Assembly: GCF_002863865.1 (NCBI RefSeq)
Contig: NZ_CP022684.1
Coordinates: 1,232,931-1,296,930 of the forward strand
Source of the DNA: Ketobacter alkanivorans
GTDB taxonomy: Bacteria > Pseudomonadota > Gammaproteobacteria > Pseudomonadales > Ketobacteraceae
Direction: 5' to 3'
Length of the DNA stretch: 64,000 nt
Shown: positions 14,601 to 45,802 of the stretch, piece after piece
Layout: every line of letters starts with the position of its first letter
Numbering within the stretch: the first letter of the stretch is position 1
The notes under the pieces: model-generated
What the model saw: the letters and a program-made list of their open reading frames with translations, nothing else
Databases searched by the model: none
What the model was told of the DNA's origin: nothing
Program-made: the position numbers and the translations under genes

Positions 14601-15490
14601 TTGTGTGTTTCCACCTTCATCAGGATATGGACCCACTCCTGATGGAATTCGTACTCCTTGCTGACAGGATCAGGGTAAAAGCGCCCTGCCTCACAACCCT
14701 CAATCACCGATGCGTTGTCGGCGTATGCTGAAAGCACGCCCTCGCCACCGACCTGATAGGTGTTTTTGATCATCTTGAACAGGGAGTGGGGCTGAGGCTC
14801 ACCATCTACAGTCCAATCAGCATTGAATATCTTGTGTCGGCAGTGTTCAGAGTTTGCCTGAGCAAACATCATCAACTCAACATCAGTCGGGTTGCGCTGC
14901 AGCTCTTTAAAGCTCTCCACTAAGTAATCGATCTCGTCTTCCGCCAGGGCCAAACCCAGATCAGAGTTGGCTCTCGCCAGTGCATCTCGCCCCCCTTCCA
15001 GAATATCAACCTGCGTGAGGGGAGCAGGTTCATCGTGACGGAACAGCGCCTCGGCCTCCGCCAGATCCAGCATCACCGCCTCCACCATGCGATCGTGCAA
15101 CAGCGCCGCCGCCCGCAGTATCTGTTGCGCACTCAACGCACTGTCAGCCGTCAGATAATAGGCCACCCCACGTTCAAGCCGCAGCACCTTGCTCAAACTA
15201 CAGTTGTGGGCAATGTCGGTGGCCTTGGACGACCAGGGGGAAATAGTGCCAGGGCGCGGCACCACCAGAATCAGCGTGCCGCCGGGTTCTTCGGCAGCTT
15301 GACTGGGGCCATACTGCAGAATCGTCTCCAACACCCGGCTTTCATCCTCTGAAAGCACTTCGGACAACTCGGCAAAATGCATAAACTCAGCATATAGCCC
15401 TTTTATTTCAGATACTTGGGCCTGAAGTTCGGCTAGCAGTTTGTCACGACGGAATGAGGATAAAGCGGGGGCACCACGAAGCTGTAACAT
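11609..15490 (-). CDS. purL: Phosphoribosylformylglycinamidine synthase (PurL)
   Basis: 1293 residues, the large single-chain gammaproteobacterial form of FGAM synthase, which converts FGAR, glutamine and ATP to FGAM in purine synthesis. N-terminal PurS-like region, linker, two AIRS-like halves ([44 protein letters not shown]) and a C-terminal class I glutaminase with nucleophile in GVCNGCQM and the His-Glu pair in PHPERVYR. It is complete, with no frameshift. A TATAAT hexamer lies about 45 bases upstream. In Pseudomonas-type genomes purL adjoins mltF; here an MCP gene is lodged between. Confidence 0.98.
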
Positions 15491-15532
15491 CTGGGTCTCG
15501 GCTGGCTAAAGGAGTGAAAAAGGAAAGCGGGG

Positions 15533-15561
15533 ATTATAAAGGAACTGAGGGGGGGGAGAAA
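15533..15561 (-). promoter_or_regulatory. Possible purL promoter
   Basis: On the minus strand TATAAT (15538-15533) is well placed before purL, but the -35 position reads TTTCTC, a weak match. No PurR-type operator was recognised. Confidence 0.3.
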
Positions 15562-15590
15562 GGAGCAATGGCGACTGCCACTGCTCCTTT
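15559..15590 (-). terminator. Hairpin terminator after the MCP gene
   Basis: Arms AAAGGAGCA (15559-15567) and TGCTCCTTT (15582-15590), extended inward by TGGC/GCCA around a GACT loop with one A-C mismatch. On the minus strand the stem is followed by TTTCTCCCC, a weak U-tract. It separates the MCP gene from purL. Confidence 0.6.
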
Positions 15591-15617
15591 ACGATTAGCA
15601 CGCAATAACGTGAAGGC

Positions 15618-16760
15618 CTAGCTTACGTAACGGTTGACGATATTTTCCAGCTCGTGAGCGGTACTTTCAATTTCCTGCTTCAAACGACCCAGCTGCTTGC
15701 CCTGATTGTCGTTTCTGGAGGCGGAATCGCCCATGCCACGCAGGGTGCGGTTGATGGCATCCGCTGCCGCCGTTTGCTGTTCAACTGCAGCGGCGATCTG
15801 TTCATTCATGGAACTGATTGACCCTATGGCACCGGTAATAGCTTGCAAGGATTCACCCGCTTTTTGGGCTTGCTCCACACTCAACTCGGCCTGTCTACGG
15901 CCCTCGGCCATCACCCCCACTGCATTCTTGGAACCATCCTGCAGACGGGCAATCATGTCGTTAATTTCCTGGGTTGCTTCCTGTGTGCGCTGGGCCAGGG
16001 TACGTACTTCGTCCGCCACTACCGCAAAGCCTCGGCCCTGCTCTCCGGCCCTTGCTGCCTCGATTGCAGCGTTCAACGCCAGCAGGTTGGTTTGATCGGC
16101 GATACCACGAATGACTTCCAGAATCGCACCGATGGACTCGGTATCCGCCTCCAGTTTCTGGATGGCAGTGGCCGCCCGCTCTACCTCATCCGCCAGAGAA
16201 TGAATCGAGCCGGTGACGCTATTCACCACGTTCTGGCCACTATCGGCCTCTCTGCTGGCATCCCGCGCCGCCTGAGCAGCCGTGGTCGCATTCTGGGAGG
16301 CATCATGTACTGCCGCGCTCATAGACGATATGGCATCGAGCACTTCCTGTATTTCTCTATCAAAGCTGGAGTTTCCGCCTGACGACAACTTGTTAAGCTC
16401 TCGGCTCATGACCTTGATACGATCAAGGTTGCCGGAAACCCGCTCAAATACTTCCTGAAAGTGGCCCATCAAACCGTTGATCGAATCCATCACCGGGCTC
16501 GGTGATTCGCTTTGCAGGCGATCATCCAGGCGCTTATTACCATCAATAACACCCTGCATAAAGCCGATCAGCTGCTCATCGCCAGAGTTGCCTCCTCGGC
16601 TCATCGCAGCGGCTATACCTGCCGCAACCAGGGCCACTATCACCCCGCCACCGACTGCAGACATCATGCCTTCAGATCCGGACACAGCCCAAGCCAGATA
16701 ACCCACCTGCAAAACCCCGAACACACCCAGAGCACCCATCAATCGCACATTGGCTACCAT
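15618..16760 (-). CDS. Methyl-accepting chemotaxis protein without periplasmic sensor
   Basis: 380 residues. Two N-terminal hydrophobic helices (about 5-26 and 33-53) are separated by only a short loop, so there is no periplasmic ligand-binding domain. A short linker leads to the MCP signalling domain (about 130-375), whose hairpin tip has [20 protein letters not shown] and [15 protein letters not shown]. It relays signals to CheA/CheW; the stimulus could be membrane or cytoplasmic state. A terminator follows. It sits between purL and mltF, which are neighbours in related genomes, so it looks like an insertion into the backbone. Confidence 0.92.
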
Positions 16761-17114
16761 CGCTTTGCCGCCTCTCGCCGCTTTAAAAAGTCACTTCAAT
16801 AAAGCGTAGGCAAGTTTGGGGGATGCTGCAAAAAAAGCAGAGTGCTAAATACATCACATTTAAATTCACTATTTGTATATAAAAGCGCCTTTTTATGCGA
16901 TCTGTTACACATTGAAATCGACTTTAACGCGGGATAACGATATAATTCGTTCACTTTTTATACAAATTTTGACTGTTAAACGCACACCATTGCAGCAAGC
17001 ACCTCAGTCTAAACAAGGCATGTTTTGATGAGGTTTGACTCATATTTAGGATAATTCGGCACAAGGATTACAGGCACTTACCGCCTGAACAGGGATTCCG
17101 CAAAGAACTGAACT
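16761..17114. other. 354-bp divergent region between MCP and mltF
   Basis: AT-rich. It holds one good promoter-like match towards mltF (16918-16946) and no ORF or RNA gene that I can support. No FliA-type promoter for the MCP gene was convincing. Confidence 0.5.
16918..16946 (+). promoter_or_regulatory. Candidate promoter towards mltF
   Basis: TCGACT (16918-16923), a 17-base spacer and a perfect TATAAT (16941-16946). It would leave a leader of about 160 bases before the mltF ATG. Confidence 0.4.
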
Positions 17115-30966: not shown

Positions 30967-31785
30967 ATGACTATGATAAGCCCGGCGTCAAAAATCCAAA
31001 TCGACCCGTTTTTCCAGGTGCCGAGCTATGTCAAAGCAACGCGGTCGGGCAAGGTTCAACTGCCTGTACTGTATAAGGATTCCTCCTGTCTGCACGTTAT
31101 TCTGAAGGTCAAAACCAGTCTGACCAAAAGTCTGTTAGTGGACTCCGGGCTGACACCGGCGCTCAAGATGGGCCAGCACACCCTGCTATCCCTAAGCGCT
31201 TTCGAGCACAGGCACAGCACCCTGGGAACCTATAGTGCGGTGCACCTAACCCTCCCATCCCTACGCAAAACCGGGTTTTATCGGCGCTCCGGCTGGCGCG
31301 AGCTGATTGCAAAAGGCGAGCAGCGTCATATGGCGTTTCTACTGCTGCAATCGGTAAACAACACCGCAGCGATAAATAACGCAGGCAAGGAGATTTGGGG
31401 GTTTCCCAAGCAGATGGCCAATATCGATATTGTATCCAACAGGCAGGTTATTGGTTTTGAAGTGAGGGATTCCGACAACCGCAAAACCATGCTGAGCTTC
31501 GGAGGCATGCCAAAAAAGATCATGCCCTTCCCCGCTTTTGATCTAACCCTGTATAGTCAGAACGAGCACGGGCTGCATAGAACCGTGATTAATGCGCGGG
31601 GGAAATACAACTTCCACCTGCCGTTGGGGTTTCGCATAGAGCTGGGGGATTCCGATTCCCCCTTGACCCGTACCCTGCGCCAACTGCAGATTGAGGATGC
31701 CCGCATCCTCAGTGTTCTCAACACACACAAATACCAAGCCCGCATGAACGAAGGTGTCCTGGTGGAATGCCTCGATGATCTTTAA
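30967..31785 (+). CDS. Acetoacetate decarboxylase family protein (paralogue 2)
   Basis: 272 residues, alignable with the product at 28181 along its length (shared IQIDPFFQVP, WRELxxKGxQRHM-like and EIWGFPKQ; terminal KYQARMNEGVLVE). Lys148 in GFPKQ is the candidate Schiff-base lysine and is followed by Gln. No Shine-Dalgarno sequence precedes the ATG at 30967, and a second in-frame ATG lies two codons on. Its stop overlaps the convergent asmA-like gene by 4 bases. Function unassigned beyond family. Confidence 0.8.
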   Translation: MTMISPASKIQIDPFFQVPSYVKATRSGKVQLPVLYKDSSCLHVILKVKTSLTKSLLVDSGLTPALKMGQHTLLSLSAFEHRHSTLGTYSAVHLTLPSLRKTGFYRRSGWRELIAKGEQRHMAFLLLQSVNNTAAINNAGKEIWGFPKQMANIDIVSNRQVIGFEVRDSDNRKTMLSFGGMPKKIMPFPAFDLTLYSQNEHGLHRTVINARGKYNFHLPLGFRIELGDSDSPLTRTLRQLQIEDARILSVLNTHKYQARMNEGVLVECLDDL

Positions 31786-35233: not shown

Positions 35234-36145
35234 TTAAGAGCTGGCTCGAGCATGAAGCTTCATCACCTGTTGCCGCAGCCATAGATTGGCGGGGTCCTCC
35301 TGTACCGAAACATGCCAATACATATAACTGGCCACGGGCCGTAATTCGACCGGAATCGGCCATATTTTGAGATCATGATAATGCTGATTGCGAATGGCGT
35401 AGTTCTCCGGCACGGTGAGCAGCATTTCGGAATGAGCCACCGTACTGAGCGCCACAAAATAATTCTGACAACGCATGCCGATATTGCGGTGATACCCCAA
35501 CCGCCCCAGCTCAAAATCCTCCACCACCGGGCCGCTGCGCCGGGAAGACACCACAATATGCCGCAGCTGCAGATACTTCTCCAGATCCAGCCCACCCTCT
35601 AAAAGTGGGTGCCGTTGGCGGGACACCACCACAAAATCGTCCTCCAGCAGCACCTCGTGCCGGATACTGGCTCCCACCGGCAGCAGCACATCAAACGCCA
35701 AATCCAGCCGCCCCGCAGCCAGCTCCGCCTCCATATCCCTGCGCGGAATTCGCACACTGGTGAACTGCATCAACGGCGCCTGAACCACCAACTCCGCCAC
35801 CAGCTCAGGCAACAACACCGATTCCACCACGCCCCGCATCCCCAGCACCAACTGCTTGCTGTTGGTGGCTGGATCAAATGCCTGGGGGGTGGCCAGGGTA
35901 GTCTGCAAATGGCTCAGCGCCTCCCGCACCGGCTGGATGATAGAACGCACCAGCGGCGTGGGCACCATACGATTTCCTGCCCGCACAAATAGTTGATCGC
36001 CGTATACCTCCCGCAATCGGGCCAGCGCATGGCTTACCGCAGGCTGAGTCAGGCTGAGTTTGGTCGCCGCTCGGGTAATGGACTCCTCCCGATAGATCGC
36101 ATCCAACACCACATACAGATTCAGATCCACCTTACCTATATGCAC
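35234..36145 (-). CDS. LysR family transcriptional regulator
   Basis: 303 residues. N-terminal winged HTH (about 5-65: DLNLYVVLDAIYREESITRAA, QPAVSHALARLR) and a LysR substrate-binding domain. The N-terminus (VDLNL...LFVRAGNRMVPTPLV) is of the NodD/LeuO-like branch. The start is GTG at 36145, which gives the expected MHIGKVDLNL opening. It is divergent from the acyl-CoA dehydrogenase operon across 89 bases and is its likely regulator, with a pathway intermediate as the probable effector. Confidence 0.9.
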   Translation of the reverse strand: MHIGKVDLNLYVVLDAIYREESITRAATKLSLTQPAVSHALARLREVYGDQLFVRAGNRMVPTPLVRSIIQPVREALSHLQTTLATPQAFDPATNSKQLVLGMRGVVESVLLPELVAELVVQAPLMQFTSVRIPRRDMEAELAAGRLDLAFDVLLPVGASIRHEVLLEDDFVVVSRQRHPLLEGGLDLEKYLQLRHIVVSSRRSGPVVEDFELGRLGYHRNIGMRCQNYFVALSTVAHSEMLLTVPENYAIRNQHYHDLKIWPIPVELRPVASYMYWHVSVQEDPANLWLRQQVMKLHARASS

Positions 36146-36234
36146 AGAATTAATACCTTTCCATTATTACTATTCATTGGCCTTATTATGCCTACTTCTC
36201 TACTCTATGGGCAAATCACAAAAAGGAGTCCGCC
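36146..36234. promoter_or_regulatory. Divergent promoter region of LysR gene and ACAD operon
   Basis: An 89-bp AT-rich region. CATTATTA and TTATTATG (about 36170-36188) form an imperfect dyad (6 of 8 pairs) that could be a LysR site; the evidence is weak. AAAGGAG lies 7 bases before the ATG at 36235. Confidence 0.4.
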
Positions 36235-37449
36235 ATGGATTTTTCCCATTCCCCAAAAGCGCAGGAAATGATTGCCCGAGTAAAAGCTTTTATGGATGAG
36301 CACATCATCCCCAACGAGCTGAAATACATGGAGCAGGTAGACGAGCACAATGGCGACTGGACCAAATGGCAGGTTCCCGCCCTGATGGAAGAGTGGAAAG
36401 AGCGTGCCAAGGCGGAAGGCCTGTGGAACCTGTTTCTGCCGGATGAGCACTACGGCGCAGGCCTCACCAACAGCGAATACGCCCCGCTGGCAGAGATCAT
36501 GGGCTATTGCCCCTTTGCTTCGGAGGCCTTTAACTGCAGCGCACCGGACACCGGCAACATGGAGGTGCTGTTTAAGTACGGCTCCGAACAACAGAAAAAG
36601 CAATGGCTGGAACCTCTGCTGGAAGGCACCATCCGCTCGGTATTTTTTATGACTGAGCCGGGCGTGGCCTCCTCCGACGCCACCAATATGGAAGCCACCT
36701 GTGTGGTGGAAGGCGACGAAGTCGTCATCAATGGCCGCAAATGGTGGAGTTCCGGCGTAGGCCACCCTGACTGCAAAGTGGGCATCTTCATGGGTGTCAC
36801 CGACCCGGAAGCCCCTCGCCATAGCCAGCACTCCATGGTACTGGTGCCACTGGACACCCCCGGAGTGAAAATCGAGCGCATGCTACCGGTGTTCAACCGT
36901 TACGACGCACCAGAAGGTCATGGCGAAGTATCCTTCACCAACGTGCGCGTCCCCATCGAAAACATCATCGCGGGCCCCGGTCGTGGCTTCGAAATCGCGC
37001 AAGGTCGCTTAGGGCCAGGCCGCATCCACCACTGCATGCGTCTTATTGGCGCTTCCGAACGGGGCCTCAAGCATTTGATCGAACGCTCCCTGGAACGGAC
37101 TGCTTTCCACAAGCCACTGGCCAAATTGGGTGGGAATGGCGACATCATCGCCAATTCACGAGTGGAAATCGACATGGCACGGCTGTTAACTCTCAAAGCC
37201 GCCTACCTGATGGACACCGTTGGCGTGTTCGGCGCGATGACCGAAATCTCCGCCATTAAGGTGGTAGCACCAAATGTTGCAACAAAAGTGATCGATGCGG
37301 CCATTCAAATCCATGGTGGAGGTGGTGTATCTAATGACTTCCCATTGGCACTGTTATACGGCTATGCCCGGGTACTGCGCTTGGCAGACGGCCCAGATGA
37401 AGTTCATCGTGGCCTGATTGCCCGTATCGAACTGAACAAATACAAGTGA
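36235..37449 (+). CDS. Acyl-CoA dehydrogenase, ACAD11-like
   Basis: 404 residues, full-length acyl-CoA dehydrogenase: N-terminal helical domain, middle beta domain ([23 protein letters not shown]) and C-terminal helical domain ([28 protein letters not shown]). Several stretches ([42 protein letters not shown]) are the same as, or nearly so, the dehydrogenase half of animal ACAD11 as I recall it. ACAD10/11 and bacterial LvaC process phosphorylated 4-hydroxyacyl-CoA rather than simply desaturating acyl-CoA. First gene of a five-gene operon; strong AGGAG ribosome binding site. Confidence 0.92.
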
Positions 37450-37457
37450 GGAACGAC

Positions 37458-38279
37458 ATGAACAGTGCAGTAAAAGTGGTCGCCATTACCGGTGGAGCAA
37501 GTGGTCTGGGCAAAGCCATGGCCCTGCGTTATGCAACAGCAGGCTGGCGGGTTGCCATTGCCGACATCAATGATGAGCGCGGCGCGGAAACCCTCAAAGA
37601 ACTGCAAGCCCTCACCGGTGATGCGTTCTATCAGAAGGTGGATGTACGGGATGCCGCCGCCATTGAAGCCTGGCGCGATGCTATTATCGAGCGCTGGGGG
37701 CAAGTGGATGCGGTCATCAACAACGCCGGTATCGCTTCCCATGGCGGCATTGCCGAAAGCTCACTGGAAGACTGGGACTTCGCCATCGACATCAATTTGA
37801 TGGGGGTGGTACGGGGTTGCAAACTGTTCAGCCAAGTGATGAAGCAGCAAGGTTTTGGTCATATCGTCAATATCGCCTCCATGGCCGGGCTGATTCACTC
37901 TCCTGAAATGAACAGCTACAACGCCACCAAGGCTGCGGTTGTGGCACTGTCAGAGACCATGCTGTTCGAGCTGGCACCTTTTGGCATCGGCATTACCGTG
38001 GTGTGCCCCGGCTTCTTCCAAACCAACCTGGCAGAATCCACTCGCTCACCGGATAACCACGCCCAGGCCCATGTGAGTAAGATGCTGGCTACATCGGACA
38101 TCACCGCCGACGATATCGCAGATCAGGTTTTCGCAGCTGTGGCAAACAAACAGTTTATGCTGTTACCCCACAAATCCTATCGCAACACCTGGTACTGGAA
38201 GCGGTTTATGCCAACACTGTATAACAATAAAATGGGGCAATACGGCGCCAAGCTAGCAGCCATGCGCCAACGATCATAA
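37458..38279 (+). CDS. Short-chain dehydrogenase/reductase
   Basis: 273 residues. Classical SDR with cofactor motif GGASGLGKA, NNAG, catalytic Ser-Tyr-Lys (Ser in IASMAG, SYNATKAA with Tyr and Lys) and a C-terminal extension rich in Tyr/Trp (KSYRNTWYWKRFMPTLYNNK), which suggests a hydrophobic acyl substrate. The ATG at 37458 with GAGGA five bases before it is preferred to a GTG overlapping the previous stop. It probably oxidises a hydroxyacyl or alcohol intermediate in the same pathway. Confidence 0.9.
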   Translation: MNSAVKVVAITGGASGLGKAMALRYATAGWRVAIADINDERGAETLKELQALTGDAFYQKVDVRDAAAIEAWRDAIIERWGQVDAVINNAGIASHGGIAESSLEDWDFAIDINLMGVVRGCKLFSQVMKQQGFGHIVNIASMAGLIHSPEMNSYNATKAAVVALSETMLFELAPFGIGITVVCPGFFQTNLAESTRSPDNHAQAHVSKMLATSDITADDIADQVFAAVANKQFMLLPHKSYRNTWYWKRFMPTLYNNKMGQYGAKLAAMRQRS

Positions 38280-38311
38280 ACGCAATCATAAGAATTTGAT
38301 GGAGTGACTAC

Positions 38312-39385
38312 ATGAGTGAAGTGTTAGACCAAGCCGGGAAAGTCCGGGAAGGGGAAGAACTGGATCCGAAAATCATCACCGATTACGTGAAGTCGGTAGT
38401 ACCGGACGTACAAGGCGATGCCGTGATCAAACAGTTCCCCGGCGGGGCCTCCAACCTCACCTATTCAGTAAAATTCGAAAACAAAGATTACATTCTGCGC
38501 CGCCCGCCTTTTGGCACCAAAGCCAAATCAGCCCACGACATGGGGCGCGAATTCAAGGTGATGAGCAAACTGAAACCGGTTTACGCCTACGTGCCGGACA
38601 TGATTTCGTTTTGCGAAGAACAAGGCAGCCCACTGGACTGTGAGTTCTATATCATGGATCGTCTCGTCGGCATCATTCCCCGCGCCGACATGCCCAAGGG
38701 TGTCGAACTGACTCCCGAGCAAGCCCGCAAACTCAGCGAAAACTTCGTGGATCGTTTTGTAGAACTGCACGGCGTCGATTATGAAGCTGCCGGTTTACAG
38801 GATCTGGGTAAAGGCGATGGCTACGTGGTACGCCAGATCGAAGGTTGGTCAAAACGCTTCCTGGCCGCTAAAACCGACGATGTACCCGATTTCGAAAAGA
38901 TCATGGCGTGGCTGCACAGCAACATCAAAGATCAGATCAAGGTCTGCGTCATCCATAACGATTACCGAATGGACAACGTGGTACTGAGCCCTACCGATCC
39001 TACTGAAGTGATCGGAGTTCTGGATTGGGAAATGGCTACTCTGGGCGATCCGTTGATGGATCTGGGCAATTCACTGGCCTATTGGGTAGAAGCCAATGAT
39101 CCACCGGCCCACCAGATGATGCGCCGTCAACCCACGCATCTGCCTGGCATGATGACCCGCGACGAAGTGGTCGCCCATTACTGCGCCAAAACCGGTTTGC
39201 GCGCCGAGGATTTCCTGTTCTATCGGGTTTATGGTGTATTCCGCCTGGCGGTTATTCTGCAGCAAATCTACTATCGCTTTTATCACGGTCAAACCAAGGA
39301 TCAGCGCTTCAGTGCCTTTGGCATGATGGTGAAACTGTTGGAAGAACAGTGTAACGAACTGCTGCAAGAAGCTGGCGAGTTTTAA
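38312..39385 (+). CDS. APH-family kinase, ACAD10/11 N-terminal type
   Basis: 357 residues of the aminoglycoside phosphotransferase fold: GGASNLTYSV nucleotide loop, YILRRPPFG with the ATP-binding lysine region, catalytic loop VIHNDYRMDNVV (Asp acceptor base) and the metal-binding VLDWEMATLGDPLMDLG. The same motifs form the N-terminal kinase domain of animal ACAD11 and bacterial LvaA, which phosphorylate the 4-hydroxyl of 4-hydroxyacyl-CoA. It shares base 39385 with the next gene (TAATG). GGAG lies 8 bases before the ATG. Confidence 0.9.
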   Translation: MSEVLDQAGKVREGEELDPKIITDYVKSVVPDVQGDAVIKQFPGGASNLTYSVKFENKDYILRRPPFGTKAKSAHDMGREFKVMSKLKPVYAYVPDMISFCEEQGSPLDCEFYIMDRLVGIIPRADMPKGVELTPEQARKLSENFVDRFVELHGVDYEAAGLQDLGKGDGYVVRQIEGWSKRFLAAKTDDVPDFEKIMAWLHSNIKDQIKVCVIHNDYRMDNVVLSPTDPTEVIGVLDWEMATLGDPLMDLGNSLAYWVEANDPPAHQMMRRQPTHLPGMMTRDEVVAHYCAKTGLRAEDFLFYRVYGVFRLAVILQQIYYRFYHGQTKDQRFSAFGMMVKLLEEQCNELLQEAGEF

Positions 39386-40077
39386 TGGCTGCGATTTACT
39401 TTATCCGCCACGGGCAAGCGTCGTTTAACAGCGACAATTATGACAAGCTCAGCCCCACTGGCATCAAGCAAGCACACGCATTGGGCACCGCGCTGAAACA
39501 GCGCGGCGTTCAGTTCGATGCCGTCTACGCGGGTTCCATGGTGCGCCATGCAGAAACCGCAGAAGGCTGCCTGACCGCCATGGGATGTGACTTAGATCCC
39601 GTGATTATTGATGGTTTCAACGAATACGATCACGAAGAGGTTCTGTTCAAACACCGGCCCGAGTTCAGCAATAAACTCAATTTGGCAGAATACCTCGCCC
39701 AACACCCCAATCCGCACAAAGCGTTTCAGGCAGAATTTGAACTGGCCCTGCATCGCTGGCGTGGTGGTGATTACGATCATGAATACGATGAAACCTGGCA
39801 ACATTTCAATCAACGCTGCGTTAACGCGTTAAATCAGGTGAGAAACAACCGCAACGCAAAGTCGATTGCGGTATTTTCCTCCGGCGGCCCCATTTCCGTC
39901 GTCACCGGACACTGCCTGGATTTAAACGATGCCCACATTGCAGAACTCAGCTGGTCAATCATGAACTGCTCTATCACCAGCCTGCTGTACAATAAAGACA
40001 AAATAACACTGCGTTACTTTAATGATTTTTCCCACTTCGAGTACGGTGAAGATAAATCATTACTTACCTATCGCTAA
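39385..40077 (+). CDS. Histidine phosphatase family protein
   Basis: 230 residues. The RHG motif in YFIRHGQASFNSDNYDKL (phospho-accepting His9) and the second catalytic residues in VYAGSMVRHAET and FSSGGPIS place it in the phosphoglycerate mutase-like (branch 1) superfamily. It is translationally coupled to the kinase gene, so it probably removes a phosphate within the same pathway or proofreads the kinase product; that is inference. Confidence 0.88.
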   Translation: MAAIYFIRHGQASFNSDNYDKLSPTGIKQAHALGTALKQRGVQFDAVYAGSMVRHAETAEGCLTAMGCDLDPVIIDGFNEYDHEEVLFKHRPEFSNKLNLAEYLAQHPNPHKAFQAEFELALHRWRGGDYDHEYDETWQHFNQRCVNALNQVRNNRNAKSIAVFSSGGPISVVTGHCLDLNDAHIAELSWSIMNCSITSLLYNKDKITLRYFNDFSHFEYGEDKSLLTYR

Positions 40078-40107
40078 TAAAAAAATGATCCCAAAGAGGC
40101 CCAATCC

Positions 40108-40878
40108 ATGGACATGAAAAAACCTTTTGATTTGAGCGGCCGCGTTGCCCTGGTCACCGGCGCATCCCGAGGCATTGGCGAGAGCATCGCCAAGTTGCTG
40201 GCAGGGAATGGTGCTCATGTCATCATCTCCAGCCGCAAAATTGATGACTGCCAACGTGTCGCTGATGAAATCAAAGCCGATGGCGGCAGCGCAGAAGCCT
40301 ATGCCTGCCACATTGGCGACATGGAACAGATCGCGGGGATCTTTAATCACATCCGTGAAAGCCACGGCAAACTGAACATTCTGGTGAACAACGCTGCGGC
40401 TAACCCATACTTTGGCCATGTATTGGATACCGATCTGGGTGCCTATCAAAAAACCGTTGATGTGAACATCCGCGGCTACTTCTTTATGTCGGTGGAAGGC
40501 GGCAAACTGATGCGCGACAACGGCGGTGGCTCCATCATTAACGTGGCCTCAGTGAACGGCATCATCCCGGGCCCCATGCAGGGTATCTATTCCATCACCA
40601 AAGCAGCGGTCATCTCCATGACCAAAACCTTCGCCAGAGAATGTGCCGGTGCTGGAATCCGAGTTAACGCCTTACTGCCCGGTGCTACCGATACTAAATT
40701 CGCGCAAGCCCTGGTGAAAAACGATGCAATTTTGAACCAACTGTTGCCCCATGTACCGCTCAATCGAGTGGCCCAGCCAGACGAAATGGCGAGTGCGGTT
40801 TTATATCTGGCTTCGGATGCCTCCAGCTACACCACCGGTACCAGTCTGGCGGTGGATGGTGGATATTTAATAGGCTAA
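40108..40878 (+). CDS. Short-chain dehydrogenase/reductase
   Basis: 256 residues. Classical SDR with TGASRGIG, NNAAANPY, the Ser...YSITKAAV catalytic Tyr/Lys and ARECAGAGIRVNALLPGATDT; it ends with a typical SLAVDGGYLIG. The pattern is that of the 3-oxoacyl-ACP reductase/3-hydroxyacyl-CoA dehydrogenase group. Last gene of the operon; a 12-bp perfect hairpin follows. Confidence 0.9.
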   Translation: MDMKKPFDLSGRVALVTGASRGIGESIAKLLAGNGAHVIISSRKIDDCQRVADEIKADGGSAEAYACHIGDMEQIAGIFNHIRESHGKLNILVNNAAANPYFGHVLDTDLGAYQKTVDVNIRGYFFMSVEGGKLMRDNGGGSIINVASVNGIIPGPMQGIYSITKAAVISMTKTFARECAGAGIRVNALLPGATDTKFAQALVKNDAILNQLLPHVPLNRVAQPDEMASAVLYLASDASSYTTGTSLAVDGGYLIG

Positions 40879-41327: not shown

Positions 41328-42677
41328 TCAGAGCGCGTCCAGCCAATCAGCAATAGCTGGGTAGGATACGGTCGGTGCCTGGTTGCCGTTCACTACGTCG
41401 ATATGACCACTGTTGGGAATTTCGATCCATTCATCCTGGGGATGATGTGTTTTTCCCTCAAATAAAATGCCAACCATGGTGTCGGTATCCACCAGCCCCG
41501 ATGCATCGGAAAACACGGAATAAGCCGGTGCGGTCATGCGCGACATATGATCTTGGTAGTAATAGTACCCATCATCCGTTCTGCGATCTGGTGGGTTGAT
41601 CAAATCCTGGTTTTCCTCTCCATTGCGCCAATGCTCGCGAAACTCGCCATTGATCGCCCAGTCGGAATATTGCGCCGTCACCCCCATATAAAAACTGGAA
41701 AACACCATACGGGCATGAAAGTCTTCTACATAGCCATTCATGTTGGCGGTGCGCCAAAAGTCCAGCCCGCCAAACACATTAGCCCATTGCGGCAAGTAAC
41801 TGGGGAACGCGTCAGCCAACCCGGTAACCAGCTTAAAGGTAAGATCGATACCGCCAGACACGATCACCGGCGGCAACAACGACAGCACCCAGGGTAACAC
41901 CGAGTCCAGGTCTACCAATACCGGCTGCACCAGCGCCTGAAAAAAGGCTCGGCTATCCAGTAACCAACTGTACGGATAATAGGGTATGCCTGCAGGATCC
42001 AAGGCAAGATAGCCCGCCACATTGGCATTACGTTCTGCAGCCAGCTCAGGGCTGGACGTCACATGGGGTAAATAGTCGCCTGCGGCCACCACGGCTGCAT
42101 CCATGGTGATACCCTGCAGGTAAAGATAGCCACACAGACCCCCGGTGGAGTGCCCACCGATTACCGGCTTCTTGCCAGTCACGCTGCGAACCTTATCCAC
42201 CGCTGCAGGAAAGTCCAAAGCACACCACACGTCCAGGTTGCTATTGCCATGGCCGTGCTCACTATCGAAATCCCCACGCCCTACGCCACGGTAATTAGGC
42301 ATCCAGACATCATAACCACGCAGATACAGGTAGTGCGCCAAGCTGAAAAACTTCAGATTATCATCTTGAATAACTGGATCTTGTTTGGCCCATTCCGGCG
42401 CATCCTGCGGCAGCTTATAGTGATAGCTGTTAAGCCACGGGGGAGAATAAACATCGAACTGATTGTTGTTGAGGGTAATACCAGGGAACAACACCACCGG
42501 CGTGCCATCACTGAATTCATAGCCTGATGTGGGCCGATAGCGACGCATTTTAATATCAATGCCATCGGCAGTATTAGCCACGTAAAGGCCAATCTCTCTA
42601 TTATCTGCACCGCAACCAGACAGCGCCACAACAAGGCACAGCAGCCAGCCTATCCCTATCGTTGGAAACCTACCCAT
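41328..42677 (-). CDS. Alpha/beta-hydrolase lipoprotein, tandem copy 1
   Basis: 449 residues. Lipoprotein signal (LSGC, Cys22) and an alpha/beta-hydrolase domain resembling acid-lipase-like esterases: NYRGVGRGDFDSE, nucleophile elbow GGHSTGGLCG (Ser near 176), Asp in SGLVDTDTM and His in NSGHIDVVNG as the probable catalytic triad. It is roughly two-thirds identical by eye to copies 2 and 3. Lipid anchoring suggests action on extracellular or outer-membrane ester substrates. Upstream GGGAAGG could serve as ribosome binding site. Native substrate unknown. Confidence 0.83.
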   Translation of the reverse strand: MGRFPTIGIGWLLCLVVALSGCGADNREIGLYVANTADGIDIKMRRYRPTSGYEFSDGTPVVLFPGITLNNNQFDVYSPPWLNSYHYKLPQDAPEWAKQDPVIQDDNLKFFSLAHYLYLRGYDVWMPNYRGVGRGDFDSEHGHGNSNLDVWCALDFPAAVDKVRSVTGKKPVIGGHSTGGLCGYLYLQGITMDAAVVAAGDYLPHVTSSPELAAERNANVAGYLALDPAGIPYYPYSWLLDSRAFFQALVQPVLVDLDSVLPWVLSLLPPVIVSGGIDLTFKLVTGLADAFPSYLPQWANVFGGLDFWRTANMNGYVEDFHARMVFSSFYMGVTAQYSDWAINGEFREHWRNGEENQDLINPPDRRTDDGYYYYQDHMSRMTAPAYSVFSDASGLVDTDTMVGILFEGKTHHPQDEWIEIPNSGHIDVVNGNQAPTVSYPAIADWLDAL

Positions 42678-42815
42678 ATCCCTTCCCCGTTATTATTTAT
42701 GTGCGCACACAAACCGAAAGGCCACTGATAGAGCCTTCAAATGTGCTGCTACATTAATCGCTGGGCAAGAGTCTGGGCAATACAGGAGAGCGCTGTGGCA
42801 TAGACCATTAACCAA

Positions 42816-42847
42816 AATGGCCTGTCCACATCGGTGAACAGGCCATT
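42816..42847 (-). terminator. Terminator after esterase copy 2
   Basis: AATGGCCTGT (42816-42825) and ACAGGCCATT (42838-42847) pair perfectly around a 12-base loop; TTTT follows on the minus strand. Confidence 0.75.
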
Positions 42848-42852
42848 TCGAC

Positions 42853-44199
42853 CTAGAGGCTATCCATCCAATCAGCTATGGCCGGAAACGAGATGGTGGG
42901 AGCACTGTTTCCGTTTACAATATCCACATGGCCTGAGTTGGGCACTTCGATCCATGCGTCTTTGCTGTTATAGGTTTTTCCGTTGTAGATGGTATCCACC
43001 ATGGTAGCGGTATCCACCAAGCCTGAGTGAGATGAGAACACCGAAAAAGCCGGTACCGTCATCCGCGACATATAGTCGTTGAAGTAATAGTAACCATCAC
43101 CGGGTGTGCGGCCAGGGGGCACCACTCGATTGGCATTCTCCTGTCCATTTTGCCAGTGTTCTCTGAATTCGCCGTTGATGCCCCAGTCAGCATATTGGGC
43201 AATGCCGCCAAGATAGAAACTCGATAGCGCAATTCGGGCAACGAAATCCTCAGCATATGGATCCATGTTCTCAACGCTCCAGAAATCCAGAGCACCGAAC
43301 AAATCAGCCCAATGAGGCAGATAGCTGGGGAACGCATCCGCCAAGTTGCCGATAATCGTAAACACCAGGTTAACTGCCCCGGAGGTGATGGCCGGTGGCA
43401 CCAACGACAACACCCACGGCATGATGGCATCAAGGTCAATCAGAACTTCCAGGGCAAGGATATCGAATATCAAGGCGTTATCGATCAGCCACTCATAGGC
43501 CAGAATCGGCGAACCTGCAGGATCAACCCCCACAAAACCAGACACATTGGCATTACGCTGGGCCGCCAGTGCCGCACTGGAGGTCACATGGGGCAGGTAT
43601 TCTCCGGCTTTCACGACATTGGCATCCATGGTGATGCCTTGAAGGTAAAGGTAGGCGCACAAACCGCCAGTGGAGTGGCCGCCAATCACCGGTTTCTTGC
43701 CAGTTACCGCACGCACTTTGTCTACCGCCGCGGGGAAATCCAAAGCACACCAAACATCAAGGTCGGTGTTGCCATGACCGTCTTCACTGGCGTAGTCATC
43801 ACGGCCCACACCTCGATAGTTCATCATCCATACGTCATAGCCGCGCAGATACAGATAGTGGGCCATGCTGAAGTATTTCAGGTTGTCATCACGGATAGTG
43901 GGATCGTTACGAGCCCAGGCAGGCGCATTCGATGGCAGCTCATAGTGATAGCTGTTCAACCAGGGCGGTGAATACGTATCCCATTGGTTGTTGTTCATGG
44001 TGATGCCGTTGGCCAGCAGTATCGGCATTCCGGAGCGATAGCTATGCCGGGGAGTAGGACGATAGCGTTTCATCCCGATCTTCACACCATCAGCCGTGGT
44101 GGCGTTATAGAGCCCTTCGACACCAGCGCCGCCGCACCCTGTAATCAGAAAAACAAAGCACACCAGCATGGCTGTGCCCGATATTTTTATTATCTTCAT
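42853..44199 (-). CDS. Alpha/beta-hydrolase lipoprotein, tandem copy 2
   Basis: 448 residues, same architecture as its neighbours: lipobox ITGC (Cys22), GGHSTGGLCA with Ser176, Asp396 in SGLVDTATM, His424 in NSGHVDIV. Compared with copy 3 it differs mostly in the signal peptide, a loop around residues 250-275 and the 320-365 region. CCCTACCCT on the plus strand at 44206-44214 gives an AGGGTAGGG ribosome binding site, identical in sequence and spacing to that of copy 3. Its own terminator follows, so the copies are probably transcribed separately. Confidence 0.83.
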   Translation of the reverse strand: MKIIKISGTAMLVCFVFLITGCGGAGVEGLYNATTADGVKIGMKRYRPTPRHSYRSGMPILLANGITMNNNQWDTYSPPWLNSYHYELPSNAPAWARNDPTIRDDNLKYFSMAHYLYLRGYDVWMMNYRGVGRDDYASEDGHGNTDLDVWCALDFPAAVDKVRAVTGKKPVIGGHSTGGLCAYLYLQGITMDANVVKAGEYLPHVTSSAALAAQRNANVSGFVGVDPAGSPILAYEWLIDNALIFDILALEVLIDLDAIMPWVLSLVPPAITSGAVNLVFTIIGNLADAFPSYLPHWADLFGALDFWSVENMDPYAEDFVARIALSSFYLGGIAQYADWGINGEFREHWQNGQENANRVVPPGRTPGDGYYYFNDYMSRMTVPAFSVFSSHSGLVDTATMVDTIYNGKTYNSKDAWIEVPNSGHVDIVNGNSAPTISFPAIADWMDSL

Positions 44200-44378
44200 T
44201 GGTTGCCCTACCCTGAACGGTTGTTTTTGTTGTTATGGACTACAAAATCATACTAGCAAGGCGCTTCAGATGGGTTTTGTTCAATCAGGCCAGAGGGCAG
44301 GAAAAATTGTATCTATTGGTAAAGTTTTTGTTTATGCATCAATAAGGGGCGCATAACAAAAAGCTCCCCCTCGTAACT

Positions 44379-44408
44379 AAAAAAGGCCCCCCTAATAAGG
44401 GAGGCCTT
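44379..44408 (-). terminator. Terminator after esterase copy 3
   Basis: AAGGCC (44383-44388) and GGCCTT (44403-44408), extended by CCC/GGG with one mismatch, loop TAATAA. TTTTTT follows on the minus strand. Confidence 0.85.
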
Positions 44409-44455
44409 CGTTGTCTCATCCCATTGCAGGATGATTTTTTATACTTACAGATTGC

Positions 44456-45802
44456 TTACAGGGTATCTAACCAGTTAGCGATTGCAGGGAAGGAAATGGT
44501 AGGAGCGCCATTACCGTTCACTACGTCAACGTGACCGGAATTAGGTACTTCGATCCACGCATCTTTGCTGTTGTAGGTTTTGCCGTTGTAGATAGTGTCA
44601 ACCATGGTCGCAGTGTCAACCAGGCCAGAGCTGGCAGAGAACACAGAGAACGCAGGTACAGTCATACGTGACATATAGTCATTGAAGTAGTAGTAGCCAT
44701 CGCCAGGAGTACGGGCAGGTGGTACAACCAGGTTGCGGTTTTCCTGGCCATTCTGCCAATGCTCACGGAATTCACCGTTGATACCCCAATCAGCGTACTG
44801 AGCGATACCACCCAGATAGAAGCTGGAGAACGCGATACGGCCAGTGAAGTCTTCTACATATGGATCCATGTTCTCAACACTCCAGAAATCCAGAGCACCG
44901 AACAGGTCAGCCCAGTGAGGCAAGTAGCTGGGGAACGCATCCGCCAGGTTGCCGATGGTTACGAATACCAGATCAATTGCACCGGACGTAATGGCAGGTG
45001 GGAACAAAGACATAACCCAAGGCATTACCGCATCCAGATCAATCTGCACTTCCAAAGCCAGAATATCGAAGATCAGAGCGTTATCAATCAACCACTCATA
45101 AGCCAGGATAGGTGAGCCAGCAGGGTCAACACCCATGAAACCGGACACGTTGGCGTTACGCTGAGCAGCCAGTGCAGCACTGGACGTTACGTGAGGCAGA
45201 TATTCACCAGCTCTCACAACGTTGGCATCCATGGTGATACCCTGGAGGTACAGGTAAGCACACAGACCACCGGTTGAGTGACCACCGATAACCGGCTTCT
45301 TGCCAGTCACGGAACGCACTTTGTCTACCGCAGCAGGGAAATCCAGGGCACACCACACGTCAAGGTCAGTGTTACCGTGGCCATTTTCACTGGCGTAATC
45401 ATCACGGCCTACGCCACGATAGTTCATCATCCATACGTCATAGCCACGCAGATACAGATAGTGCGCCATGCTGAAGTATTTCAGGTTGTCATTACGGATG
45501 GTGGGATCGTTACGAGCCCAGGCAGGCGCGTCCGAAGGCAGCTCATAGTGGTAGCTGTTGAGCCAAGATGGAGAATAAACATCCCATTGGTTGTTGTTCA
45601 GAGTGATACCGTTAGCCAACAGGATTGGCATACCGGAACGATAGCTGTGATTAGGAGTCGGACGATAGCGCTTCATCCCAATTTTCACGCCATCGGCAGT
45701 CGTTGCATTATAAAGGCCTTCGACACCATTGCCGCCACAACCGGTTAATACGATTGCGACACACATCAACAGAGCACTGCCTAGTGGTCTTATCAGTTTC
45801 AT
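44456..45802 (-). CDS. Alpha/beta-hydrolase lipoprotein, tandem copy 3
   Basis: 448 residues; lipobox LTGC (Cys22), Ser176 in GGHSTGGLCA, Asp396, His424. Protein sequence is very close to copy 2, but codon choice differs: near the 3' end copy 3 uses GGT, GCT/GCA, CCT, TTC and ATC where copy 2 uses GCC, CCC, CCG, TCG and ATA. That is the bias of strongly expressed gammaproteobacterial genes and suggests copy 3 is the main expressed form. AGGGTAGGG (minus strand, 45817-45809) lies 6 bases before the ATG. A strong terminator follows. Confidence 0.84.
   Translation of the reverse strand: MKLIRPLGSALLMCVAIVLTGCGGNGVEGLYNATTADGVKIGMKRYRPTPNHSYRSGMPILLANGITLNNNQWDVYSPSWLNSYHYELPSDAPAWARNDPTIRNDNLKYFSMAHYLYLRGYDVWMMNYRGVGRDDYASENGHGNTDLDVWCALDFPAAVDKVRSVTGKKPVIGGHSTGGLCAYLYLQGITMDANVVRAGEYLPHVTSSAALAAQRNANVSGFMGVDPAGSPILAYEWLIDNALIFDILALEVQIDLDAVMPWVMSLFPPAITSGAIDLVFVTIGNLADAFPSYLPHWADLFGALDFWSVENMDPYVEDFTGRIAFSSFYLGGIAQYADWGINGEFREHWQNGQENRNLVVPPARTPGDGYYYFNDYMSRMTVPAFSVFSASSGLVDTATMVDTIYNGKTYNSKDAWIEVPNSGHVDVVNGNGAPTISFPAIANWLDTL

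Follow-up and report, generated by a model that had tools for sequence, protein, structure and literature searches.

A stretch of 64,000 nucleotides of the Ketobacter alkanivorans genome (contig NZ_CP022684.1, positions 1,232,931 to 1,296,930; the window) carries five plus-strand genes at 36235-40878, faced by a LysR-type regulator gene. They encode an acyl-coenzyme A (acyl-CoA) dehydrogenase, two short-chain dehydrogenases (SDR1 and SDR2), an aminoglycoside phosphotransferase (APH)-fold kinase and a histidine-phosphatase-like protein. The sequence evidence makes it very likely that the operon carries out a phosphate-driven dehydration of some hydroxyacyl-CoA or lipid. It is probable, with rather less certainty, that the operon is catabolic and dehydrates 4-hydroxyacyl-CoA at the expense of ATP, as a split version of the animal protein ACAD11 with a different kinase. 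The dehydrogenase is placed by phylogeny inside the ACAD10/11 clade, residues for catalysis and CoA contact in ACAD11 are conserved in the kinase, and in otherwise similar gene clusters a kinase of the ACAD10/11 type takes its place. The host genome is a single contig of 4.9 Mb, and the locus is laid out as follows.

35234-36145, minus strand: LysR-type regulator, divergent (Pfam HTH_1 and LysR_substrate); candidate regulator of the operon
36169-36190, plus strand: operator-like motif ACTATTCATTGGCCTTATTATG in the gap between the LysR and dehydrogenase genes; fits the T-N11-A pattern of LysR boxes; putative function
36235-37449, plus strand: ACAD10/11-type acyl-CoA dehydrogenase, 404 aa (Pfam Acyl-CoA_dh and PDB matches); predicted phosphate-eliminating 4-phosphoacyl-CoA lyase
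37446-38279, plus strand: SDR1, short-chain dehydrogenase (Pfam adh_short; NCBIfam NF004196/PRK05650, 376 bits, cut-off 297)
38312-39385, plus strand: APH-fold kinase, 357 aa (Pfam APH, 153 bits; HxDxxxxN and DWE motifs); predicted 4-hydroxyacyl-CoA kinase
39385-40077, plus strand: histidine-phosphatase-fold protein, 230 aa (Pfam His_Phos_1); Ser166 in the slot of the second catalytic His
40108-40878, plus strand: SDR2, short-chain dehydrogenase that travels with the kinase (Pfam adh_short; NCBIfam NF005446/PRK07035, 463 bits, cut-off 373)

The original prediction had placed these five genes and the facing LysR gene here and assigned them to these families, and both the open reading frames and a Pfam scan of the window proteins agree, with all six gene families above the curated cut-offs. 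The kinase stop and the phosphatase start overlap (TAATG). The listed start codon of SDR1, a GTG, overlaps the stop codon of the dehydrogenase; a likelier start is the ATG at 37458, which follows an AGGA. In ACAD11 the dehydrogenase and kinase domains are part of one polypeptide, whereas here they are separate frames with SDR1 in between.

The dehydrogenase belongs with ACAD10 and ACAD11

The best PDB matches of the dehydrogenase were 4hr3, a bacterial putative acyl-CoA dehydrogenase, and ACAD11 (8v3u, 8v3v and 2wbi; E values of 1e-136 to 1e-138). The next named family in the same search was medium-chain acyl-CoA dehydrogenase (MCAD) at 1e-40, a gap of about 97 orders of magnitude. The window protein is 56% identical to the corresponding part of mouse ACAD11, 33% to LvaC of the lva operon and 27% to an ordinary dehydrogenase of the host genome.

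In ACAD11, R626, H634 and R637 bind the 4-phosphate, their mutation blocks elimination and D753 is the base, according to PMC12440821. Residues equal to all four are present in the window dehydrogenase when it is aligned with the mouse protein. The alignment comprised 144 rows gathered by likeness to the window protein, with a minimum match of 330 aa (230 aa for the kinase alignment and 150 aa for that of the phosphatase; shorter rows were dropped). H597, R626, R631, H634, C635, R637 and D753 were unchanged in 134 rows, window and mouse included, and one further row (L078) differed at C635 only. The remaining nine were ordinary dehydrogenases of the host genome, all lacking R626, H634 and R637, although one (L098) has Asp at the base position. 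R631 was common to all 144 rows, in agreement with PMC12440821. The host's second relative of the dehydrogenase (L090) carries the full ACAD11 residue set.

The original prediction had named a position of the dehydrogenase outside the ACAD10/11 clade as the result that would speak against it. In a tree of 43 of the 144 rows, the window protein grouped with gammaproteobacterial orthologues (14 rows; support 100/98), and these, together with three bacterial sets (L163-L165) and mouse ACAD11, formed an 18-row clade (99/96); ACAD10 itself was not among the rows. Types like LvaC (92/85) and types from Deltaproteobacteria, Bacillota and Spirochaetes (100/99) formed separate groups, with the pocket residues still present. 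The tree and the full residue set indicate that the dehydrogenase belongs inside the ACAD10/11 clade.

Three Pseudomonas genomes have extra ACAD10/11-like dehydrogenases (L196:6711-7982, L197:6484-7845 and L199:6321-7568), which are 49-50% identical to the window's, form a clade of their own (100/100) and have no kinase relative in the stretch examined.

A second kinase clade with ACAD11-like residues

The likeness to the kinase half of ACAD11, on which the original prediction also drew, was likewise recovered, and both halves match far better than chance would give. The best solved relatives of the kinase were 9o56 (E value 1e-83; function unnamed), 3dxp and ACAD11 (8v3v; 1e-40), then the 25-hydroxysteroid kinase 9fsg (1e-11). 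Identities were 41% to 9o56, 32% to 3dxp, 31% to mouse ACAD11, 35% to an ACAD10-type bacterial kinase and 25% to LvaA. The predicted structure of the kinase has a mean predicted local distance difference test score (pLDDT) of 90; 3dxp was its closest fold match, with 25-hydroxysteroid kinase in third place and ACAD11 at rank 22, and 9o56 was absent among the 50 fold matches listed.

The ACAD11 study places two Arg residues on CoA, R176 and the Arg beside the alpha-C Glu (PMC12440821). The latter, R86 in the paper, is off from the numbering used here, in which the Arg before the Glu is R84, and was matched by description. Both were present in 114 of 125 aligned kinase rows, including the window kinase, ACAD11, 3dxp and 9o56. 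Neither was present in the other 11, all of the LvaA type, in which the R176 column is aligned with less certainty. The catalytic Asp and Asn (D220 and N225 of ACAD11) are kept in all 125 rows, window included. In a tree of 40 of these rows, the LvaA types split off at 100/100, and the window type was left among relatives from Gammaproteobacteria, Thermodesulfobacteriota, Bacillota, Spirochaetota and Acidobacteriota; of the 37 inner branches of the tree 19 lack resolution, and the branch to 9o56 is long. The window kinase appears to work like the ACAD11 kinase yet falls outside the ACAD11 kinase clade. The likeness to the ACAD11 kinase half noted in the original prediction extends to the catalytic and CoA-contact residues and not to clade membership.

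Two kinase types alternate in one gene frame

Conservation was followed in the best 80 of 109 loci around kinase relatives, some of which stop at contig ends, so that absences are upper limits. A dehydrogenase of the ACAD10/11 kind was found in 69 of the 80 loci (33 at an identity of at least 55%, 36 lower), the phosphatase in 67, SDR2 in 63 (at least 45% identity), SDR1 in 34 (at least 40%) and a LysR homologue in 32. Thirty loci held all five plus a high-identity dehydrogenase, and three were without dehydrogenase, phosphatase and SDR2. All 15 family genomes carry the kinase, and relatives preserve the gene order. Gammaproteobacteria conserve the unit of LysR, dehydrogenase, SDR, kinase, histidine phosphatase and SDR, and other phyla show it in rearranged form; in four loci examined from these phyla, a TetR-type gene separates dehydrogenase and kinase.

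Across 293 genomes of the order, searched with different E cut-offs, the kinase was found in 82, the dehydrogenase in 167, the phosphatase in 138 and an ACAD10/11-type kinase in 103. Neighbours were counted among the rows listed, which number 150 each for dehydrogenase and phosphatase, 83 for the window-type kinase (one of them, G274:C4, an ACAD10-type kinase) and 129 for the ACAD10/11-type kinase. A phosphatase lay within 4 kb of 69 of the 83 kinase rows, a dehydrogenase of 55 and both of 50, while a single neighbour is expected by chance about twice per thousand. A dehydrogenase of the ACAD10/11 kind is present in 144 of 149 Pseudomonas genomes.

To follow the kinase swap, 14 loci were chosen in which the phosphatase stands with a dehydrogenase but no window-type kinase (6 loci) or beside neither (8 loci). 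An ACAD10/11-type kinase, 48-51% identical to that of L165, adjoins the phosphatase or the dehydrogenase in nine of them. Six have the order phosphatase, dehydrogenase, ACAD10/11-type kinase, with an SDR2 homologue at 66-71% identity close by, and in two of these six (L229 and L230) a LysR homologue at 42-43% faces the phosphatase. Among the 150 listed phosphatase rows, 69 lie within 4 kb of a window-type kinase. An ACAD10/11-type kinase stands beside all 19 of the other 81 rows that have a dehydrogenase and beside 23 of the 62 that do not; in all, 111 of 150 are within 4 kb of one or other kinase type. The bacterial ACAD10/11-type split sets (L163-L165 and L225-L230) resemble the window operon in their dehydrogenase (56-59% identity) and, in L225-L230, in the Ser-type phosphatase and SDR2, but their kinase is of the ACAD11/3dxp clade and 35% identical to the window's. 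These results suggest that the window kinase clade stands in for the ACAD10/11-type kinase in otherwise alike operons. A bacterial ACAD10-related kinase is reported to substitute for the ACAD10 domain in vitro (PMC11342911). Among the indirect arguments for a shared function of the window kinase and the ACAD10/11 type, this alternation of two kinase types within a single gene frame carries the most weight.

A phosphatase-like protein with an invariant serine

The fourth gene of the operon encodes a branch-1 histidine phosphatase fold with the RHG motif, matching riboflavin-pathway phosphatase, phosphoserine phosphatase, PGAM5 and alpha-ribazole phosphatase. R8, H9, R54, E80, N194 and N213 are invariant in all 109 distinct aligned copies, and all 109 have Ser166 at the slot of the second catalytic His. 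E80 is presumably the acid. The slot was assigned from alignment with three lva-cluster phosphatases, all of which have His there, and from the strand that ends at residue 165; in the predicted structure (pLDDT 94), strand 160-165 lies directly before Ser166. The host genome has six histidine phosphatase matches, and the four others examined all keep the second His. The idea that the protein is unique to the window locus was rejected, as it occurs in 138 of 293 genomes of the order, and so was its restriction to the window-type kinase, as 42 of the 150 listed rows adjoin an ACAD10/11-type kinase instead. Some of the phosphatase genes beside neither kinase type (L234, L236, L237 and L238) lie near SDR or LysR genes.

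The most likely role of the protein is to limit the level of the 4-phosphoacyl-CoA by binding it or the kinase, whether through slow phosphatase action in an altered pocket or through regulation; no part of the proposed system is less certain. A dead pseudo-enzyme was rejected, because the nucleophile His9, together with R8, R54 and E80, is unchanged in all 109 copies, which leaves room for slow catalysis. The same residues, which a dead protein would not need, can also be read as signs of a plain active histidine phosphatase that clears dead-end 4-phospho acids, with the serine a neutral variant, and a canonical histidine phosphatase is indeed present in three of four lva loci of one Pseudomonas genus. 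We regard this as possible but the weaker explanation: a neutral change would not be invariant, and Ser in every copy stands against His in the three lva-cluster phosphatases and in the four other host proteins.

Phosphatase folds recur beside these kinases. ACAD10 resembles the window operon in having a phosphatase-related part, a HAD domain with an incomplete DxD motif, which is reported to restrain its own kinase (PMC11342911). A SurE-type phosphatase gene (L163:5355-6197, minus strand) lies beside an ACAD10-type kinase and an AMP-dependent ligase. The recurrence of Ser-type, lva canonical, SurE and HAD phosphatase folds suggests that control of phosphorylated acyl-CoA may have been needed repeatedly. 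A bolder version, which we hold only tentatively and consider rather doubtful, is that two distant kinase types share a dedicated companion, the Ser-type protein being a brake or sensor on phosphorylated acyl-CoA and not an ordinary phosphatase, and that, with the ACAD10 HAD domain, the lva phosphatase and SurE, it would show that phosphatase folds were recruited several times, independently, to keep a single dangerous intermediate under control. A literature search, mostly excluding subscription papers, returned no publication on a serine-type histidine phosphatase or on a bacterial ACAD10/11 operon with a phosphatase beyond those cited here.

Proposed pathway and alternatives

In the proposed pathway, the kinase would phosphorylate the 4-hydroxyl of 4-hydroxyacyl-CoA, and the dehydrogenase, with its Asp base, flavin adenine dinucleotide (FAD) and Arg/His/Arg pocket, would expel the 4-phosphate, leaving a 2-enoyl-CoA that can enter beta-oxidation. 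The most likely role of SDR2 is that of LvaD (34% identity), the interconversion of 4-oxo- and 4-hydroxyacyl-CoA, or else the oxidation of a product. LysR most likely regulates the operon, SDR1 would be optional, and the histidine-phosphatase-like protein most likely keeps the 4-phosphoacyl-CoA in check. The likeness to animal ACAD11 and ACAD10 lies in the dehydrogenase clade and its pocket residues and in the kinase fold with its catalytic and CoA-contact residues; the window differs in its separate genes, other kinase clade, unrelated phosphatase-like fold, extra SDRs and LysR.

Several observations weigh against this pathway. The window kinase lies outside the clade that joins ACAD11, 3dxp and L163-L165 (100/99), is 31% identical to the ACAD11 kinase domain and has HND where ACAD11 has HGD. 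Among the rows listed, neither phosphatase nor dehydrogenase is within 4 kb of 9 of the 83 kinase rows, and 39 of 150 phosphatase rows are beside neither kinase type. In two Pseudomonas genomes examined, the dehydrogenase is unlinked from the kinase; in the loci L166 and L169 it is found with a LysR gene, and kinase, phosphatase and SDR2 are elsewhere. No CoA ligase is present inside the operon, and a related APH-fold kinase is reported to phosphorylate a free hydroxysteroid, not a CoA ester (PMC8449060).

The last point bears on a variant in which "4-hydroxy" is wrong and the chemistry right, the same two-step dehydration acting on a different hydroxylated substrate, whether acyl-CoA or lipid, such as one with a branched, sterol side-chain or 5-hydroxy chain. 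The 25-hydroxysteroid kinase of Sterolibacterium (9fsg) is related to the window kinase in fold and sequence and serves an ATP-dependent dehydration by way of a phosphate ester, with a steroid substrate without CoA and no known lyase (PMC8449060); it is also the weaker match, at 1e-11. The distinct kinase clade would fit such a substrate, as would a host lva-like set that could already take short 4-hydroxy acids. In two Pseudomonas loci an SCP2 sterol-carrier-type gene lies between the Ser-type phosphatase and the kinase (L168:7078-7392 and L045:7494-7805), a hint at long or bulky acyl substrates. On the other side stand the CoA-contact Arg residues kept by the kinase, the gene frame shared with ACAD10/11-type kinases and, in the dehydrogenase, the whole ACAD11 pocket, which positions the 4-phosphate, and we consider the variant fairly unlikely. 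Very unlikely, in our view, is a loose fatty-acid cluster in which the dehydrogenase would oxidise acyl-CoA with FAD in the ordinary way and the kinase would act elsewhere. The separation of the two genes in the Pseudomonas loci examined and the extra Pseudomonas dehydrogenases (48-50% identity) without a kinase in the stretch examined would suit it, but the Asp base and phosphate pocket are conserved in 134 of 144 rows, 55 of 83 kinase rows have a dehydrogenase no more than 4 kb away, and ACAD10 and ACAD11 are reported to have no activity on ordinary acyl-CoAs (PMC12440821).

Relation to the lva operon

The lva operon was recognised by gene order in Pseudomonas L201 (regulator, kinase, DUF6285 protein, dehydrogenase, SDR, ligase, small protein, transporter). 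Identities between L209 and L201 were 78% for LvaC, 68% for LvaD, 63% for LvaG, 52% for LvaR, 58% for LvaA and 34% for LvaE, close to the 78, 67, 64, 52, 59 and 35% printed for P. citronellolis against KT2440 (PMC6692424), which supports the assignment of both loci. The window operon was rejected as an lva operon, since its kinase is 25% identical to LvaA of L201 and its dehydrogenase 33% to LvaC of L201, both falling outside those tree groups. It shares with lvaABCDE of Pseudomonas putida the logic of kinase, acyl-CoA dehydrogenase and SDR, and LvaC-type rows share the pocket residues. It differs in having no LvaB, LvaE or LvaR (no LvaB or LvaE was found between 35234 and 40878 by frames and Pfam families) and in the two Arg residues of its kinase that LvaA types lack. 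Neither the kinase nor the dehydrogenase is an orthologue of the LvaA and LvaC with which the original prediction compared them.

The original prediction had also held the phosphatase to be foreign to the Lva set. A histidine phosphatase beside lvaA and lvaC homologues was, however, printed for P. citronellolis in 2019 (PMC6692424). This LA18T cluster resembles the window in having the gene beside kinase, acyl-CoA dehydrogenase and SDR, but its likely counterpart, the L209 phosphatase, keeps the second His (VSHD) and is of another subtype. In the Pseudomonas genus of L209, LvaA was found in 4 of 25 genomes, with a canonical histidine phosphatase beside LvaB in three of the four lva loci.

In all four of these loci an LvaB homologue (42-46% identity) separates LvaA from the following gene (L209:7347-7724, minus strand, and L206-L208), in contrast to the P. 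citronellolis cluster, in which no lvaB is stated to have been found (PMC6692424). LvaC of L201 (5810-6982) is 34% identical to mouse ACAD11; the 56-62% identity printed for LvaC against ACAD11/10 (PMC11342911) may be a similarity or refer to another protein. The host's own lva-like set (L210:6025-7376 and 15006-17062) has an LvaA-type kinase (29% to LvaA), LvaB and TetR at 2.18 Mb and, about 8 kb further, a dehydrogenase with the full residue set and an SDR (42% to LvaC and 50% to LvaD).

Regulator, SDR1 and neighbouring genes

LysR had been proposed as a candidate regulator, and its presence beside the operon in 32 of 80 loci and an operator-like motif conserved in near relatives are consistent with this role. 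Its best NCBIfam match is BsrA at 213 bits, below the cut-off of 480. Of 22 upstream stretches, 11 contain the motif core TATTCATTGG (9 of 20 when only distinct ones are counted), all of them from the genus, the family or L011; it was not found as such in the Marinobacter, Pseudomonas or ACAD10-type loci among them. SDR1 is optional in the unit, being absent from L011 with the rest kept there. A mechanical promoter and terminator scan gave fewer matches than shuffled sequence and was set aside.

Three tandem paralogous genes for alpha/beta-hydrolase lipoprotein-like proteins (41328-45802, minus strand) converge on the operon. They were ruled out as members by their opposite strand, and the 41328 gene was matched, in the loci compared, only in the host and five genomes of the same genus, where fragments of it lie at the same place. 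About 4 kb upstream, 30967-31785 (plus strand) encodes an acetoacetate-decarboxylase-like protein barely above the cut-off of Pfam ADC, with no match in the other loci compared.

Significance

The mammalian genes that channel 4-hydroxy acids into beta-oxidation were identified as recently as 2024-2025. The kinase clade of the window and its invariant Ser-type phosphatase partner are not described in the literature searched. If the proposed pathway is true, there is a widespread bacterial version of this route with a second, unrecognised kinase clade. The phosphatase-like partner would be a general part of the system, and control of the phosphorylated intermediate would be testable with simple bacterial proteins. 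Many genes annotated as aminoglycoside phosphotransferase, acyl-CoA dehydrogenase or histidine phosphatase would then be re-named.

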